A stretch of 39,734 bases of DNA, from assembly GCA_016286785.1 (NCBI GenBank), contig JAEEUB010000007.1:1-39734 (forward strand), written 5' to 3'. The DNA comes from Candidatus Saccharimonadota bacterium (lineage in GTDB: Bacteria; Patescibacteriota; Saccharimonadia; Saccharimonadales; Saccharimonadaceae). A program made the position numbers and the translations under genes. Positions 26,502-36,846 of the stretch are shown piece after piece; the first letter of the stretch is position 1; every line of letters begins with the position of its first letter. The notes beneath the pieces are model-generated. The model worked only from the letters and a program-made list of their open reading frames with translations, searched no databases and was not told the origin of the DNA.

Positions 26502-27500
26502 CTAGATAGCCAACCTAGAGCGACGTGCTTTACGTTTCCTGATTAGCATTATAATCCATATGGTTAAAAATGTCAATAATAAAATTACACCAATTAGCGC
26601 TACTGGCGAGAATAAGAAGAAAGTGCGCTCGGTTGTTTCTGTTTGATCGCCAGCGGTTACTGTCCAAGTAGCTTTGTATAGTCCAAAACCTGGAGTATCC
26701 TTCCATTCTTCAAAGACACTCATCTCTACTTCTGGGATAACGGAGACTCTGGCGCCGTTGGTGTTTTCGTAGGACGAGAATCCGATAATTGGTTTAACTT
26801 CTAGTTTTCCGGTTGCAACAAAATCCACATTGCCGTTATTTTTTACCTTTGCGGTTGCATATATGTTGTTGCGTGAGATTTCATTTTCGGTTATTCCCTT
26901 TTCGATCGAGAGCTTAGAAACCTCGGCAGAGATAATATTTTCCCCTTCGGTAGCATGACCATATACTACGATGCCTGGGCTTGCTTCTGTGCGGATACCG
27001 CTACCAGATGTTACGCTGGTTAAGGCGTGAGTAAATATCACAGCATATTGGCCGCCGCTAGGCATGTTGATTGGAGTTTTGATGCGGTATTTTACGTTGA
27101 GCTTTTCGTTGCCGGGGATAGTGAATGTCGGTTTTTCGACATAGTTTCCAGATGCGTCTTCAAAAGTCATCCAACGGGACAATTGGGTAAAGTTGTTTTC
27201 TTTGGAAAATCCTAGCTTGTAGGCATCCTCTTCTTCGGAATAGGTGTAGGAATATGGACTAGCGTATACTTCGACTTTGATTTCGCTTTCGCCTTCGTTT
27301 TTGATTTCGAAGGTATTTTCGACTATGGAATCTGGAGGTAGTTTTACCACGAAATTGGCTGGTGATAGTCGGATGCTGGTGCCGGATGTATCTTCGCTGG
27401 CCTTAGTTTCTTCTTCGGCGTATACTTGGCCTACAAAAAACCCTAAGCCAAGAACCATTAAAAGGCCGATTGCTAGGGTACTTATAATATTCTTTTTCAT
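26502..27500 (-). CDS. Secreted, C-terminally anchored protein, DUF916/WxL-interacting-like
   Basis: 332 residues: signal peptide (residues 1-28, ending VYA), an ectodomain with RLSPANFVVKLPPDSI, then IKNEGESEIKV and a second Ig-like part (AKVKNNGNVDF), one membrane helix (about 302-323) and a strongly basic end (RKRKARRSR). The ectodomain resembles DUF916-type domains, which in Gram-positives bind peptidoglycan or WxL proteins; the match is by pattern only. It is encoded upstream of the VPNTG protein, so the two may act together at the envelope. The ribosome binding site is strong (AAAGGAGGTAG before the ATG). Confidence 0.75.
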   Translation of the reverse strand: MKKNIISTLAIGLLMVLGLGFFVGQVYAEEETKASEDTSGTSIRLSPANFVVKLPPDSIVENTFEIKNEGESEIKVEVYASPYSYTYSEEEDAYKLGFSKENNFTQLSRWMTFEDASGNYVEKPTFTIPGNEKLNVKYRIKTPINMPSGGQYAVIFTHALTSVTSGSGIRTEASPGIVVYGHATEGENIISAEVSKLSIEKGITENEISRNNIYATAKVKNNGNVDFVATGKLEVKPIIGFSSYENTNGARVSVIPEVEMSVFEEWKDTPGFGLYKATWTVTAGDQTETTERTFFLFSPVALIGVILLLTFLTIWIIMLIRKRKARRSRLAI

Positions 27501-29643: not shown

Positions 29644-30912
29644 TTAATTTAGCATATTTTTTCTTTTGAGTAAAGAATGATATGTGATGGCAAAGCGGTG
29701 GGCTTCTTCGTCTACTCTGGCAATTAGTCTCGTGACGTGATCGCCGCTAGATAACTTTATGCGACGGAAGCTACCAGTGGCTTCGGGTATTACGAGGGTG
29801 ACCTTAGCTGATTTTGAATGATCTCCAGATTTGCTGCGTCCAATTATTGGAATATTATAGGGCCCAATAAGTGGAAGCACTGCATTAATCTGCGTTTCTC
29901 CACCATCAATAAGTATCAGATTCGGAAAATCCCATTCTTTGTGTTTTAGTCTTCGTTCTATAACTTCTCGCAAGCTTTTTAAATCGTCGTTTGTGGAGGT
30001 GCGTACTTTAAATTTGCGATATTCGCTTCTGGTGGCGGTGCCGTTTACGAAAACTACCATACTGCCAACCGTATCTTTGCCGGATTGGTGCGAGATGTCG
30101 TAGCCTTCGATTCGGCGTGGTGGTGAGATTAGATTTAGCATTTTTTGAAGCTGTTTTAAGGCTTGGTCTGACGAAATATCCAAGAACTCTTTGTCTGAAA
30201 AAACGATTTTCTTTTGTAGCTCTTTTAGGCCTCTTAGTTGGTCTCTTGCTTCTGCTGCGGCTTCAAAGTTTCCTTTTTTTGATTCTAGCAGCATAGTTTT
30301 TTCGAGTTCTTTTAGGAGTTTTTTTCTGTCGCCTTCGAGGTAGCGAATCATTTTTTTGAGATTTCGTTTATAATCTTTGGCGGTTGACTTGCCGATTTCG
30401 ATACCCGGAGTTAGTCCAAGGTCGGTGTTTAGTGTTTTTCTGCCCGTGTATGGTTTGTCGTAGTATGGGAAAATCCTGCGCAATATTCTTACCGCTTTCT
30501 CGATTCCCGATTTGCCATAAAATGGCCCAACGTAAGTAGCTTTATCGTCTGTGGGGTTACGTGTGAACGAAACAAAAGGTACTTCTGATTTTAAATCGAT
30601 TCTAACGTAGGATACGGTTTTATCGTCGCGTAGCAAGATATTCCATTTTGGCATGTAACGTTTGATCATTTCTGCTTCTAAAAATAAAGCATCCATTTCG
30701 GTATCAACTACGATCCAGTCGGTGTCTACAATTTCTGAAACTAAGGCTTCGGTTTTTGGGTCTTTTTGAGATTTTTGAAAATATTGTCGAACGCGGTTTT
30801 TGAGGACGGCTGCTTTCCCTACATAGATTATTTCATTATTGACGTTTTTATGAAAATAAACTCCGGGACTTGCCGGGAGGGTTTTTAGCTTTTCTTTTAA
30901 CGCCTCGTTCAT
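29644..30912 (-). CDS. uvrC: Excinuclease ABC subunit C, short form without HhH domain
   Basis: 422 residues against about 600 for usual UvrC. The N-terminal GIY-YIG nuclease (GVY at 17-19, YVG at 30-32), a UVR motif (KGNFEAAAEARDQLRGL) and the RNase H-like nuclease domain (EGYDISHQSG, SMVVFVNG, LILIDGGETQ, HRFAITYHSLL) are present. The chain ends right after this domain, so the tandem helix-hairpin-helix domain that binds DNA is absent. It should cut DNA on both sides of lesions marked by UvrB. TGCTATAAT lies 6 nt before the ATG, so the mRNA is probably leaderless. Confidence 0.95.
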   Translation of the reverse strand: MNEALKEKLKTLPASPGVYFHKNVNNEIIYVGKAAVLKNRVRQYFQKSQKDPKTEALVSEIVDTDWIVVDTEMDALFLEAEMIKRYMPKWNILLRDDKTVSYVRIDLKSEVPFVSFTRNPTDDKATYVGPFYGKSGIEKAVRILRRIFPYYDKPYTGRKTLNTDLGLTPGIEIGKSTAKDYKRNLKKMIRYLEGDRKKLLKELEKTMLLESKKGNFEAAAEARDQLRGLKELQKKIVFSDKEFLDISSDQALKQLQKMLNLISPPRRIEGYDISHQSGKDTVGSMVVFVNGTATRSEYRKFKVRTSTNDDLKSLREVIERRLKHKEWDFPNLILIDGGETQINAVLPLIGPYNIPIIGRSKSGDHSKSAKVTLVIPEATGSFRRIKLSSGDHVTRLIARVDEEAHRFAITYHSLLKRKNMLN

Positions 30913-30918
30913 GACTAG

Positions 30919-30924
30919 ATTATA
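30919..30924 (-). promoter_or_regulatory. Leaderless promoter of uvrC
   Basis: Minus-strand TATAAT preceded by TGC, 6 nt before the uvrC ATG; secG and the SBP gene may be read from it too. Confidence 0.75.
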
Positions 30925-30937
30925 GCAAATTCAAGAT

Positions 30938-30969
30938 AAAAGGAAACCCCGGGACGCTAGGTCCCGGGG
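30938..30969 (-). terminator. GC-rich terminator of small unit A
   Basis: A perfect 9-bp stem CCCCGGGAC / GTCCCGGGG (30947-30969, 5-nt loop) is followed on the minus strand by TTTCCTTTT. It ends the transcript of unit A, 14 bp before the uvrC -10. Confidence 0.85.
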
Positions 30970-31007
30970 CTCGTCAGGTTCGCAGTTATGGGCTTAGGGC
31001 AGTACGC

Positions 31008-31139
31008 TTAGGCGTCGGAGCCGTGACGCCTAAACGCGTTGCGGTGTGAATGAGGGGCGTCTCCGCCGTTCCTTTGGCATCGATTGGGGGCAACGGCGTG
31101 TTGATGTACGGGCGCAGCCCGCGCTGGTCTATTGAACAT
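31008..31139 (-). CDS. Possible 43-residue basic peptide in unit A
   Basis: AAGGGAG lies 3 nt before an ATG; the frame gives 43 residues rich in Arg, His, Ala and Pro, without hydrophobic stretch. The codons are GC-rich. The stop codon is inside a perfect 9-bp stem-loop. It resembles nothing I know; it could be chance. Confidence 0.25.
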   Translation of the reverse strand: MFNRPARAAPVHQHAVAPNRCQRNGGDAPHSHRNAFRRHGSDA

Positions 31140-31181
31140 ATTCTCCCTTCTTTTGAAGTGATAGGGGGCGCGGCGCATATG

Positions 31182-31211
31182 CTACTGGGTGGCGGTATAA
31201 TGCCAAATCAT
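31182..31211 (-). CDS. Possible 9-residue leader peptide in unit A
   Basis: GAGGAGG lies 6-7 nt before ATG; the product would be MIWHYTATQ. The start context GCCTATGATT and the distance from the predicted 5' end (60 nt) match the 21-residue frame of unit B (63 nt). Confidence 0.35.
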   Translation of the reverse strand: MIWHYTATQ

Positions 31212-31277
31212 AGGCATCCCTCCTCATACTGTTCTCGACGATTAATGTTCGCGAGCCAAGTGGCTCGTTATCGTTTT

Positions 31278-31306
31278 ATGATATCACTTCGTAAAGTTTT
31301 TGTCAA
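31278..31306 (-). promoter_or_regulatory. Consensus promoter of small unit A
   Basis: Minus-strand TTGACA (31301-31306), spacer of exactly 17, TGA then TATCAT (31278-31283). The -35 box follows the terminator T-run of unit B by 1 bp. Confidence 0.85.
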
Positions 31307-31307
31307 T

Positions 31308-31340
31308 AAAAAAGTGCCCCGAGACTTATTGTCTCGGGGC
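31308..31340 (-). terminator. GC-rich terminator of small unit B
   Basis: A perfect 10-bp stem GCCCCGAGAC / GTCTCGGGGC (31316-31340, 5-nt loop) is followed on the minus strand by ACTTTTTT. Confidence 0.9.
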
Positions 31341-31384
31341 GCTTGCGAACTCCCCTAAAGGGGTGCTTCCCTCCGCCCGATAAG

Positions 31385-31429
31385 CTATCGTGACGGACGG
31401 GCCTTGATAACGGCTCTGATAAAGATCAT
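31385..31429 (-). CDS. Possible 14-residue peptide in unit B
   Basis: AAGGAGAAGGTG precedes the ATG by 5-11 nt; product MIFIRAVIKARPSR, short, basic and partly hydrophobic. It starts 4 nt after the 9-codon frame ends. Evidence for translation is only the site and spacing. Confidence 0.25.
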   Translation of the reverse strand: MIFIRAVIKARPSR

Positions 31430-31433
31430 CAGC

Positions 31434-31463
31434 TCACCTTCTCCTTTTTTCCATGGGTGACAT
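31434..31463 (-). CDS. Possible 9-residue peptide in unit B
   Basis: CAGGAG lies 2 nt before an ATG (MSPMEKRRR), and a second in-frame ATG follows. Its codons overlap the ribosome binding site of the next frame, so translating it could influence that frame. Confidence 0.2.
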   Translation of the reverse strand: MSPMEKRRR

Positions 31464-31495
31464 TACTCCTGGGCTTCTTCGGCCGTTCTCGAAGC

Positions 31496-31561
31496 CTACT
31501 TGGCGGCCCAGGTGGCAGCGGCATAGCTATTTTTGATATTCTGCATGCAATTGACAATCAT
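31496..31561 (-). CDS. Possible 21-residue peptide in unit B
   Basis: AAGGTAA lies about 5 nt before the ATG in the GCCTATGATT context shared with unit A. The product MIVNCMQNIKNSYAAATWAAK is weakly amphipathic. The 3' end (GCC..ACC..GCC..AAG TAG) resembles the end of the 9-codon frame of unit A (ACC GCC ACC CAG TAG). Confidence 0.35.
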   Translation of the reverse strand: MIVNCMQNIKNSYAAATWAAK

Positions 31562-31630
31562 AGGCGTTACCTTACCCTTCTTCGAGGTTTAACGTGCTGG
31601 AATCGGCTTTTGCCGATTCAGGATGTTGTT

Positions 31631-31659
31631 AGTATACCACTATGAATTATTTTTGTCAA
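31631..31659 (-). promoter_or_regulatory. Consensus promoter of small unit B
   Basis: Minus-strand TTGACA (31654-31659), spacer of exactly 17, TGG then TATACT (31631-31636). Confidence 0.85.
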
Positions 31660-31679: not shown

Positions 31680-33185
31680 TTATTCTATATTTAGATTATT
31701 GGCGATGTTTTCTATGAATTGTTGTATAATCGTCTCATATTCTTCGTAGTTCTTCGGTTCGGATATGGTAATATTGTTGGGGTATGCAATATTTAGGTCC
31801 GTTATCATGCTAAAATCATTATTTTGGTATTCGAAATATAGTCTAGAGATCTTATGTTGTTCGTCAATTTCGACATATAGATTCGGTAGATTTGATATGC
31901 TACTAATTAGGTTATCCGAATTTAAATCATCGTTACTGTGTCCTAGGCAACTAGCTAAGTTAGTCACTTCTTTGGAGCTATTAATTGAGGTAATAAAGCT
32001 TTCAAACTTTGTTTTATTTAAGACAATGCGGCGCACCGGATAGTTCTTATTGCTGATTGGGATGCCTTCTGTGCTGGAGGAAATAAATGGATTTTGTTGG
32101 TATAGCAGGGCGATATTTTTTGAATTACTGTCGAGGCTATTCACAAGTGGTGTAAAACAACTTGAGTTTTGGTTAATTGCTTGATTGATGGTATTACTAG
32201 AAATCTTAACCCATTTGCTTTCGGCATTGTTAGTGGTTTTATTGGGGTAATTTGAGTCATCCGCAGATGGGGTGATTGTAGCGCAATCTTTTTCGTTCTT
32301 GCAGTCAATTACTGGTTCGGGATTGTTTATGAGCGATGTAGTTAGATTCTCCATGTTTTCGGTTCTAAAATACAAATCTCCTTTTGGTGTGTATATTTCG
32401 CTAATATTTACTGTGGTATCTTCTGGTGAATTCTGTGTTTTAAGATTTAAGTTTATATCAGCTGAATTAGCAAACGAGCCACCGAGTTTTTGGGAGTTTA
32501 GATTAATCTTAATTCTTGAAAAGGGGGAGCTATCGTCATTAATGGTGATTGCGACTGTGCCGCTTATATCCATATTGTCGTTGTAGCCGTTTTCTAATAG
32601 GTTTTGAAAGGCCATACTTACTGGATCTTCTGGCTTATTGATGATTAAGAGCGCTGCAACTACGCCGCAACCTATTGCTAAAAATATCGCAATAATACCA
32701 CCGACAATCAAGCCCCGTTTTTTGAGCAGAGTATGAGTAGATTTAACCTCGGTAACGATTGGCTTTGGTGCAGCGTTGATTTGAGGGGCTGAGCTATTAT
32801 TTGGTTGTGCGCTTGAAGTGTTTGGAGCTTCGTCTAGTATTGGGGTCGCTTTAATATCGTTGTCTGGCTTTACGGGTACGAATTTTTTGTTGGCCGCTAG
32901 TGGTCTTGTTACGCCAAAGTTTGGGCGACTAAGAGTTGTTTTTATGGGATTTATTTTTTCTGATTTTGTGCCAAATGGGTTTTCGGGTTGTATTATTGGC
33001 TTAAGCGAACCAAATGTATCGTCAGCTTGTTTTATTGGTTTAAACGATTCGGGCGCATTATCGTTTTGTTGTCTAGTAACGTTATCGTTGTTTAGATCTG
33101 TAGCTTCCGATGCGTTCTTGACCGGCTCTTCTGGTGTAGGCTTGGGATTGAGGGGATTTGGGGTGCCCTCGTAATCTTGATCCAT
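31680..33185 (-). CDS. Membrane protein with disordered Pro/Asn-rich cytoplasmic part, unknown
   Basis: 501 residues. Residues 1-155 are Pro/Asn/Lys-rich and probably disordered, with a 13-residue tandem repeat (47-59 and 60-72, pattern S-[FL]-KPI-x-Q...FG). One membrane helix spans about 158-182. The outer part, about 320 residues, is rich in Asn and Ser with several Cys pairs (for example DCKNEKDC). The topology (N-terminus inside, bulk outside) is predicted from the basic KKRG before the helix. I do not recognise a family. AAAGGAG precedes the ATG by 5 nt, and TGATATCAT lies about 30 nt upstream. It is divergent from eno. Confidence 0.8.
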   Translation of the reverse strand: MDQDYEGTPNPLNPKPTPEEPVKNASEATDLNNDNVTRQQNDNAPESFKPIKQADDTFGSLKPIIQPENPFGTKSEKINPIKTTLSRPNFGVTRPLAANKKFVPVKPDNDIKATPILDEAPNTSSAQPNNSSAPQINAAPKPIVTEVKSTHTLLKKRGLIVGGIIAIFLAIGCGVVAALLIINKPEDPVSMAFQNLLENGYNDNMDISGTVAITINDDSSPFSRIKINLNSQKLGGSFANSADINLNLKTQNSPEDTTVNISEIYTPKGDLYFRTENMENLTTSLINNPEPVIDCKNEKDCATITPSADDSNYPNKTTNNAESKWVKISSNTINQAINQNSSCFTPLVNSLDSNSKNIALLYQQNPFISSSTEGIPISNKNYPVRRIVLNKTKFESFITSINSSKEVTNLASCLGHSNDDLNSDNLISSISNLPNLYVEIDEQHKISRLYFEYQNNDFSMITDLNIAYPNNITISEPKNYEEYETIIQQFIENIANNLNIE

Positions 33186-36189: not shown

Positions 36190-36846
36190 TTACAACACTA
36201 CTCCGTTTTTGTCAATTTCGGCGACCAGGCTTCTAAATGCTGCTCCCGGATCGGTGGCTTGCGAAATAGCTGCCCCTACGTTAATTACATCGAGGTCAGC
36301 GTGTGAGAGGGCTCTGATGTTAGTAATATTTGCTCCGCCATCCCAGCCAATTTCTACTTCTGGTTTCATGTTGCGGATAAGTGCGATTTTTTCCATCTGC
36401 ATAAGATCGGCCGGTGCTCCCTGTACGCCTAGTTGCCCGGCGAACACCAGTACGTGATCTACGGCGTCAATGTATGGTTTAATATTTCCTGGATAAGTTG
36501 ATGGCAAAAGTGCAACGCCGGTTCTAATACCAGCTTCTTTTAGCGTGTTGAAAGTTGGGAGAAGGTCTTCGTTTGCTTCGGCGTGCAAAATGCAAAGAGA
36601 GGGGTGAAGCTTTAAGATGGTGTCTAGATAATTAGAAGGATTTGAGGCCATTAAATGTAAATCTGCTGTCCAGTTTTTGGGCCACCAGATGTTGGTGATG
36701 TCTAATGTGGGGTAAGGAGCAAAAATCCCATCCGAGACATCGATTTGTACGCGCCTGGTAAAAATATTGATTCTTTCAACTTGCGTACGATAGTCCTGTT
36801 TGTTGTCGGTTAAAATTGCCGGCACGATTGATACTGTTCTAATCAT
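36190..36846 (-). CDS. Ribulose-phosphate 3-epimerase-like protein
   Basis: 218 residues with the TIM-barrel order of Rpe: start VSIVPAIL, QIDVSDGIFAP, LHLMASNP, HVLVFAGQLG, IGWDGGAN. Of the four metal ligands known from E. coli Rpe (H34, D36, H67, D177), three are kept, but the first His is Gln here, and the early Ser of the PSILS motif is Ala. The activity may be changed, so I do not give the name rpe as certain. AAAGGGAGG precedes the ATG 36846, which overlaps the rpiB end by 8 nt. In the frame a start 5 codons further up is also possible. Confidence 0.85.
   Translation of the reverse strand: MIRTVSIVPAILTDNKQDYRTQVERINIFTRRVQIDVSDGIFAPYPTLDITNIWWPKNWTADLHLMASNPSNYLDTILKLHPSLCILHAEANEDLLPTFNTLKEAGIRTGVALLPSTYPGNIKPYIDAVDHVLVFAGQLGVQGAPADLMQMEKIALIRNMKPEVEIGWDGGANITNIRALSHADLDVINVGAAISQATDPGAAFRSLVAEIDKNGVVL

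Follow-up and report, generated by a model that had tools for sequence, protein, structure and literature searches.

A tandem pair of candidate sibling small RNA genes upstream of uvrC in a Candidatus Nanosyncoccus-type Saccharibacterium

Two adjacent units, A and B, lie upstream of uvrC in the genome of a very small gut bacterium, a Candidatus Nanosyncoccus-type Saccharibacterium. They share one anatomy from promoter to terminator, their ends are related, and neither is found in the relatives that were searched. From this arrangement we infer transcription, translation, an origin by duplication and a regulatory function. Our preferred reading, which we hold tentatively and at slightly less than even confidence, is that A and B are tandem sibling small RNA genes, that they derive from one unit by copying and divergence and were gained in the lineage of this species, and that B probably also codes for a peptide. 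We do not claim that they belong to any described family.

Two complete units in an intergenic gap

The window, the whole stretch of 39,734 nucleotides analysed here, is one contig (C14) of a 767-kb genome, and genome-wide searches were done by pattern. On the minus strand, a 767-nt gap separates a gene for a 501-aa protein (31680-33185), which is membrane-type by inspection, from uvrC (29644-30912), and two complete predicted transcription units lie inside this gap. On re-reading of the sequence, the coordinates and letters of both units agreed with the original prediction, and so did two of its other points. The gap is of the size described and holds no long gene, and the units, each about 320-335 nt, are GC-richer than their surroundings (56% for A and 51% for B against 42% for the window). 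A 102-aa frame on the plus strand (31050-31358) has no family match and was considered mechanical.

The features are listed below. Codon usage was scored with frequencies taken from 7 further genes of this genome that follow promoters of the type seen in A and B; several frames were scored, and the p values are uncorrected.

31659-31308, minus strand: unit B
31631..31659, minus strand: unit B promoter, TTGACA-17-TATACT with extended -10 (TTGACA at 31659, TATACT ends at 31631)
31598..31621, minus strand: unit B 5' hairpin (folded alone, -12.9 kcal/mol, z -3.2)
31556..31565, minus strand: GCCTATGATT block of unit B
31496..31561, minus strand: B tiny frame 1, MIVNCMQNIKNSYAAATWAAK, 21 aa (AAGG 8 nt upstream; codon usage p=0.0006)
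31434..31463, minus strand: B tiny frame 2, MSPMEKRRR (not coding-like)
31385..31429, minus strand: B tiny frame 3, MIFIRAVIKARPSR (GGAG upstream, within frame 2; codon p=0.08)
31310..31340, minus strand: predicted unit B intrinsic terminator (terminator scan and shared stem pattern)
31306-30938, minus strand: unit A
31278..31306, minus strand: unit A promoter, TTGACA-17-TATCAT with extended -10 (TTGACA at 31306, TATCAT ends at 31278)
31252..31267, minus strand: unit A 5' hairpin (folded alone, -10.8 kcal/mol, z -1.9)
31206..31215, minus strand: GCCTATGATT block of unit A
31182..31211, minus strand: A tiny frame 1, MIWHYTATQ (AGGAGG 8 nt upstream; codon p=0.05, borderline)
31008..31139, minus strand: A frame 2, 43 aa, His/Arg/Pro/Ala-rich (codon p=0.62; overlaps a strong RNA stem)
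30998..31043, minus strand: unit A long central stem (region 31090-30985 folds at -34.7 kcal/mol, z -3.7)
30938..30972, minus strand: predicted unit A intrinsic terminator (terminator scan and shared stem pattern)

All parts of the anatomy originally described for each unit (TTGACA, a spacer of exactly 17, a TGn-TATnnT box, a 5' hairpin, a start context and a GC-rich terminator) were found. Both promoters have the form TTGACA-17-TGnTATnnT, in which TG precedes the -10, and in both A and B the 5' hairpin begins 4-5 nt from the predicted RNA 5' end, which lies near 31271 for A and near 31624 for B. The two GC-rich terminators, scored at 30972-30944 and 31340-31316, top the list of predicted terminators for 20-39.7 kb, and the folds of the two whole units, when compared with shuffles, have z values of -3.9 and -4.1. 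Judged by sequence signals, a separate promoter and a separate intrinsic terminator are present for each of these adjacent units. In each unit a strong housekeeping-type promoter would start transcription and the unit's own terminator would stop it, and the 5' hairpin would cap the RNA end, probably stabilising the RNA. That these are the strongest promoters in the window, as had been stated, is not strictly true, since there is a 12/12 site at 26576 and another 11/12 site at 36215.

Tiny reading frames

In each unit an ATG lies within GCCTATGATT, 60 nt (A) and 63 nt (B) from the predicted start, with a purine-rich site before it. The conservation of leader and start context points to this GCCTATG start as the place where ribosomes would load. 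The codon score of B frame 1 exceeds that of 99.9% of random frames, which makes this frame a good lead rather than proof, given several uncorrected tests and a small training set. Unit B probably makes the 21-aa peptide, and unit A would make at most the 9-aa one. Support for the tiny reading frames of the original prediction comes mainly from B frame 1, with A frame 1 at the borderline; the 43-aa frame of A is probably not coding. Searches of Pfam and PHROGs with the tiny frames returned no significant match. The proposal of secreted peptides or leader peptides found no support, and uvrC retains its own extended -10 promoter below the A terminator.

Likeness between A and B

When A and B are compared in register, just 2 of 1000 shuffles are as similar over the first 90 nt, and two hairpin pairs in the leader alignment differ on both sides yet stay paired (by inspection). 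Taken by itself, the GCCTATGATT block does not reach significance when local alignment is left free (212/1000 shuffles). The terminator pattern GCCCCGRGAC-N5-GTCYCGGGG occurs in the window at these two sites only, with 0 expected. The middles, in contrast, are no more alike than shuffles (395/1000). Thus the ends are related, although just moderately similar, and the middle is divergent.

These results bear on the original idea of a duplicated module for structured RNAs. The related 5' leaders and terminators, the tandem order, the lack of a long gene and the lack of an Rfam match fit this idea, whereas the relatedness is confined to the ends. The pattern suggests that a unit was duplicated and the middles then diverged, or that two units were built from one cassette, and some of the similarity could reflect a common cassette style, not duplication.

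Searches for relatives and the proposed gain of the units

At the gathering threshold, no Rfam family matches A or B, and a relaxed search (E up to 5) gave just below-threshold matches to Spot 42 and two Aggregatibacter sRNAs. RNase P, tmRNA, SRP and 6S RNA were not recognised in the original observation, and Rfam gave no covariance-model match to these families. Blastn of the region against 100 relatives yielded merely short promoter-like or chance matches. A pattern joining the promoter to GCCTATGATT had no credible copy in 174 genomes of the genus, its two outside matches being coincidental as judged from the matched sequence, and both occurrences of GCCTATGATT elsewhere in this genome (on contig C23) were judged to be within coding sequence. 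A covariance model of the two leaders, run against 174 genomes of the genus and 393 of the order, likewise gave no credible copy; the matches in the genus had E values of 0.2-0.4, and three candidates in the order (G219, G359 and G463) are without a comparable unit. The conservation in related genomes that the original prediction had set as its own test was thus not observed, although very diverged copies could be missed with a model built from two sequences and with the stricter filters used in searches of more than 40 genomes. With no homolog found, comparison of covariation and codon conservation is limited to two sequences. Nothing relevant was present in phage, plasmid and viral collections, of which the viral contigs were scanned with one exact pattern. 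Apparent promoter matches at three loci (L017, L018 and L025) sit, by inspection, between 23S and 5S rRNA.

A search of the genome collection with uvrC matched, among others, Candidatus Nanosyncoccus alces and many Saccharibacteria of the ruminant gut. Identities were at most 83%, so there is no near sister species among the compared genomes. At those uvrC loci of relatives whose upstream region is readable, about 10-90 nt usually lie between the end of the preceding frame and the start of uvrC, and at most loci this short gap has a leaderless-type promoter; a few loci carry different upstream genes. A site that is filled here and nearly empty in relatives suggests a lineage-specific gain of A and B, which would have been acquired between the membrane-protein gene and uvrC in the lineage of this species. 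Loss of the units in all other lineages is less likely.

The uvrC gene itself appears to be leaderless in most of the genus (L019-L045, L061-L131), where TATAAT ends a few nucleotides before the ATG. In the window, an extended -10, TGCTATAAT, is located just before the uvrC ATG and downstream of the unit A terminator, and a -35 is no longer recognisable beside that terminator (30913-30937).

Comparable units in the genome

The strict promoter pattern has 23 occurrences in this genome, and several of these promoters drive GC-rich, terminated units with small open frames, positioned between core genes. Two small proteins from such units, of 70 and 118 aa, were tested and have no relative in 119 other genomes. 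The cassettes of these orphan proteins (window 23937-23728; G000:C23:24649-24296) have in common with A and B a strong extended -10 promoter, a leader, a ribosome site, a GC-rich body and a GC-rich terminator. A and B therefore match the cassette style of these units, but they have no comparable open frame. The 70-aa frame in the window (minus strand) is GC-rich, with its extended -10 promoter at 24000-23972 and a GC-rich terminator.

Several other elements were encountered during this analysis. Two strong promoters (G000:C8:56216 and G000:C11:5987; L143, L144) have no frame of at least 45 aa starting in the next 420 nt and are candidate orphan RNAs. A structured, leader-like RNA of about 190 nt is found behind a strong promoter in three copies here (G000:C20:33776-33551, minus strand; C20:31590-31362, minus strand; C7:3414-3651, plus strand; L164, L172, L142) and also in six other genomes of the genus (relatives L165-L170, L173-L175), and is better conserved than A and B. 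This RNA has no Rfam match at the gathering level, its consensus fold has 45 pairs with 4 changed on both sides, and GC-rich reading frames follow both C20 copies. Finally, in three genomes of other families in the order (L003:1501, plus strand; L005:1501, plus strand; L008, minus strand, ~1506), a TTGACA...GTGATATCAT promoter has a terminator-like hairpin within about 90 nt. The gene downstream codes for a small Lys/Gly-rich protein (MAGTKAGG... or similar), and the arrangement is a possible attenuator.

Discussion

The combination of alike ends and divergent middles suggests that A and B are sibling small RNAs. OmrA and OmrB are encoded in tandem, and their first 21 and last 35 nt are near-identical (PMC4211561). 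A and B resemble this pair, and other tandem sibling sRNAs (PMC4211561), in their tandem order, similar 5' and 3' ends and divergent middle. By analogy with OmrA/OmrB, the 5' leader would give the siblings a handling signal or a target in common, and their bodies would set them apart. However, OmrA and OmrB are 82-88 nt long and their ends are more nearly identical; A and B, unlike them, have no known target or Hfq dependence and are confined to a single genome in the searched data. Rfam gave no sequence homology of A and B to Omr or any other described sRNA family. Their length is great for base-pairing sRNAs, which counts against the sibling-sRNA reading, and we also list against it that the A body and its long frame are without coding signal.

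Peptide-encoding sRNAs are common (PMC5521070). The dual-function RNAs SgrS, RNAIII and VcdRP (PMC4021124, PMC8672173) are like A and B in being RNAs with a small frame, a ribosome site and a terminator of their own, whereas the frames of A and B are shorter and without sequence match to these RNAs, and for A and B both the peptide and a base-pairing function are putative.

The main rival explanation, unlikely in our estimation yet deserving serious consideration, is that A and B are decayed small-protein cassettes. In this view they started out like the GC-rich small genes (70-126 aa) elsewhere in this genome, and the promoter, leader, start site and terminator are what survives after loss of the frames. 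Such an origin would account for an architecture and GC-rich style that are the same as those of the intact small genes. In addition, frame 0 of B is the most coding-like of the whole unit (p=0.02), runs past the first stop and has few stops, and the start frame of A continues with a single internal stop. Nevertheless, one would not expect dead units to have kept, as A and B have, their promoters, hairpins and both terminators intact and their stems paired through changes on both sides, and the A body has no coding signal (p=0.81). We find it rather improbable that the products are simply the short peptides B1, B3 and A1, with the RNA serving merely as message. The purine-rich sites before the starts, the common start context and the codon usage of B1 would agree with genes for tiny peptides, but the peptides of A and B are dissimilar, A1 is only 9 residues long, A2 is not coding-like and no family match is significant.

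There is a smaller chance that the region is an attenuator or leader controlling uvrC, which lies directly downstream on the same strand, and the order of start, stem and terminator does resemble attenuation. Against this, relatives are without such a leader, and uvrC keeps, a few nucleotides from its ATG, an extended -10 like the leaderless-type uvrC promoters of relatives; with the -35 of this promoter unrecognisable, uvrC may depend in some measure on readthrough. Very improbable is a divergent version of a known housekeeping RNA (RNase P, tmRNA, SRP or 6S) or of a known regulatory RNA. Strong promoters and structure would suit such an RNA, but there is no gathering-level Rfam match, and housekeeping RNAs would be present in the relatives from which A and B are absent.

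A broader interpretation, which we offer as speculative and on balance doubtful, is that between its core genes the genus has a pool of structured, strongly expressed units that turn over fast and are private to a species, some of them coding for small proteins and others, such as A and B, acting as RNAs. A literature search by title and abstract found no paper devoted to small RNAs or small proteins in Saccharibacteria. Were this interpretation true, A and B would become the first pair of RNAs described from such a pool. It is unexpected that genomes of 0.6-1.2 Mb would keep strongly promoted, species-private structured units. Ordinary annotation sees no gene at A and B and would miss such units, which, if expressed, would be candidates for the adaptation of dependent bacteria to particular hosts.
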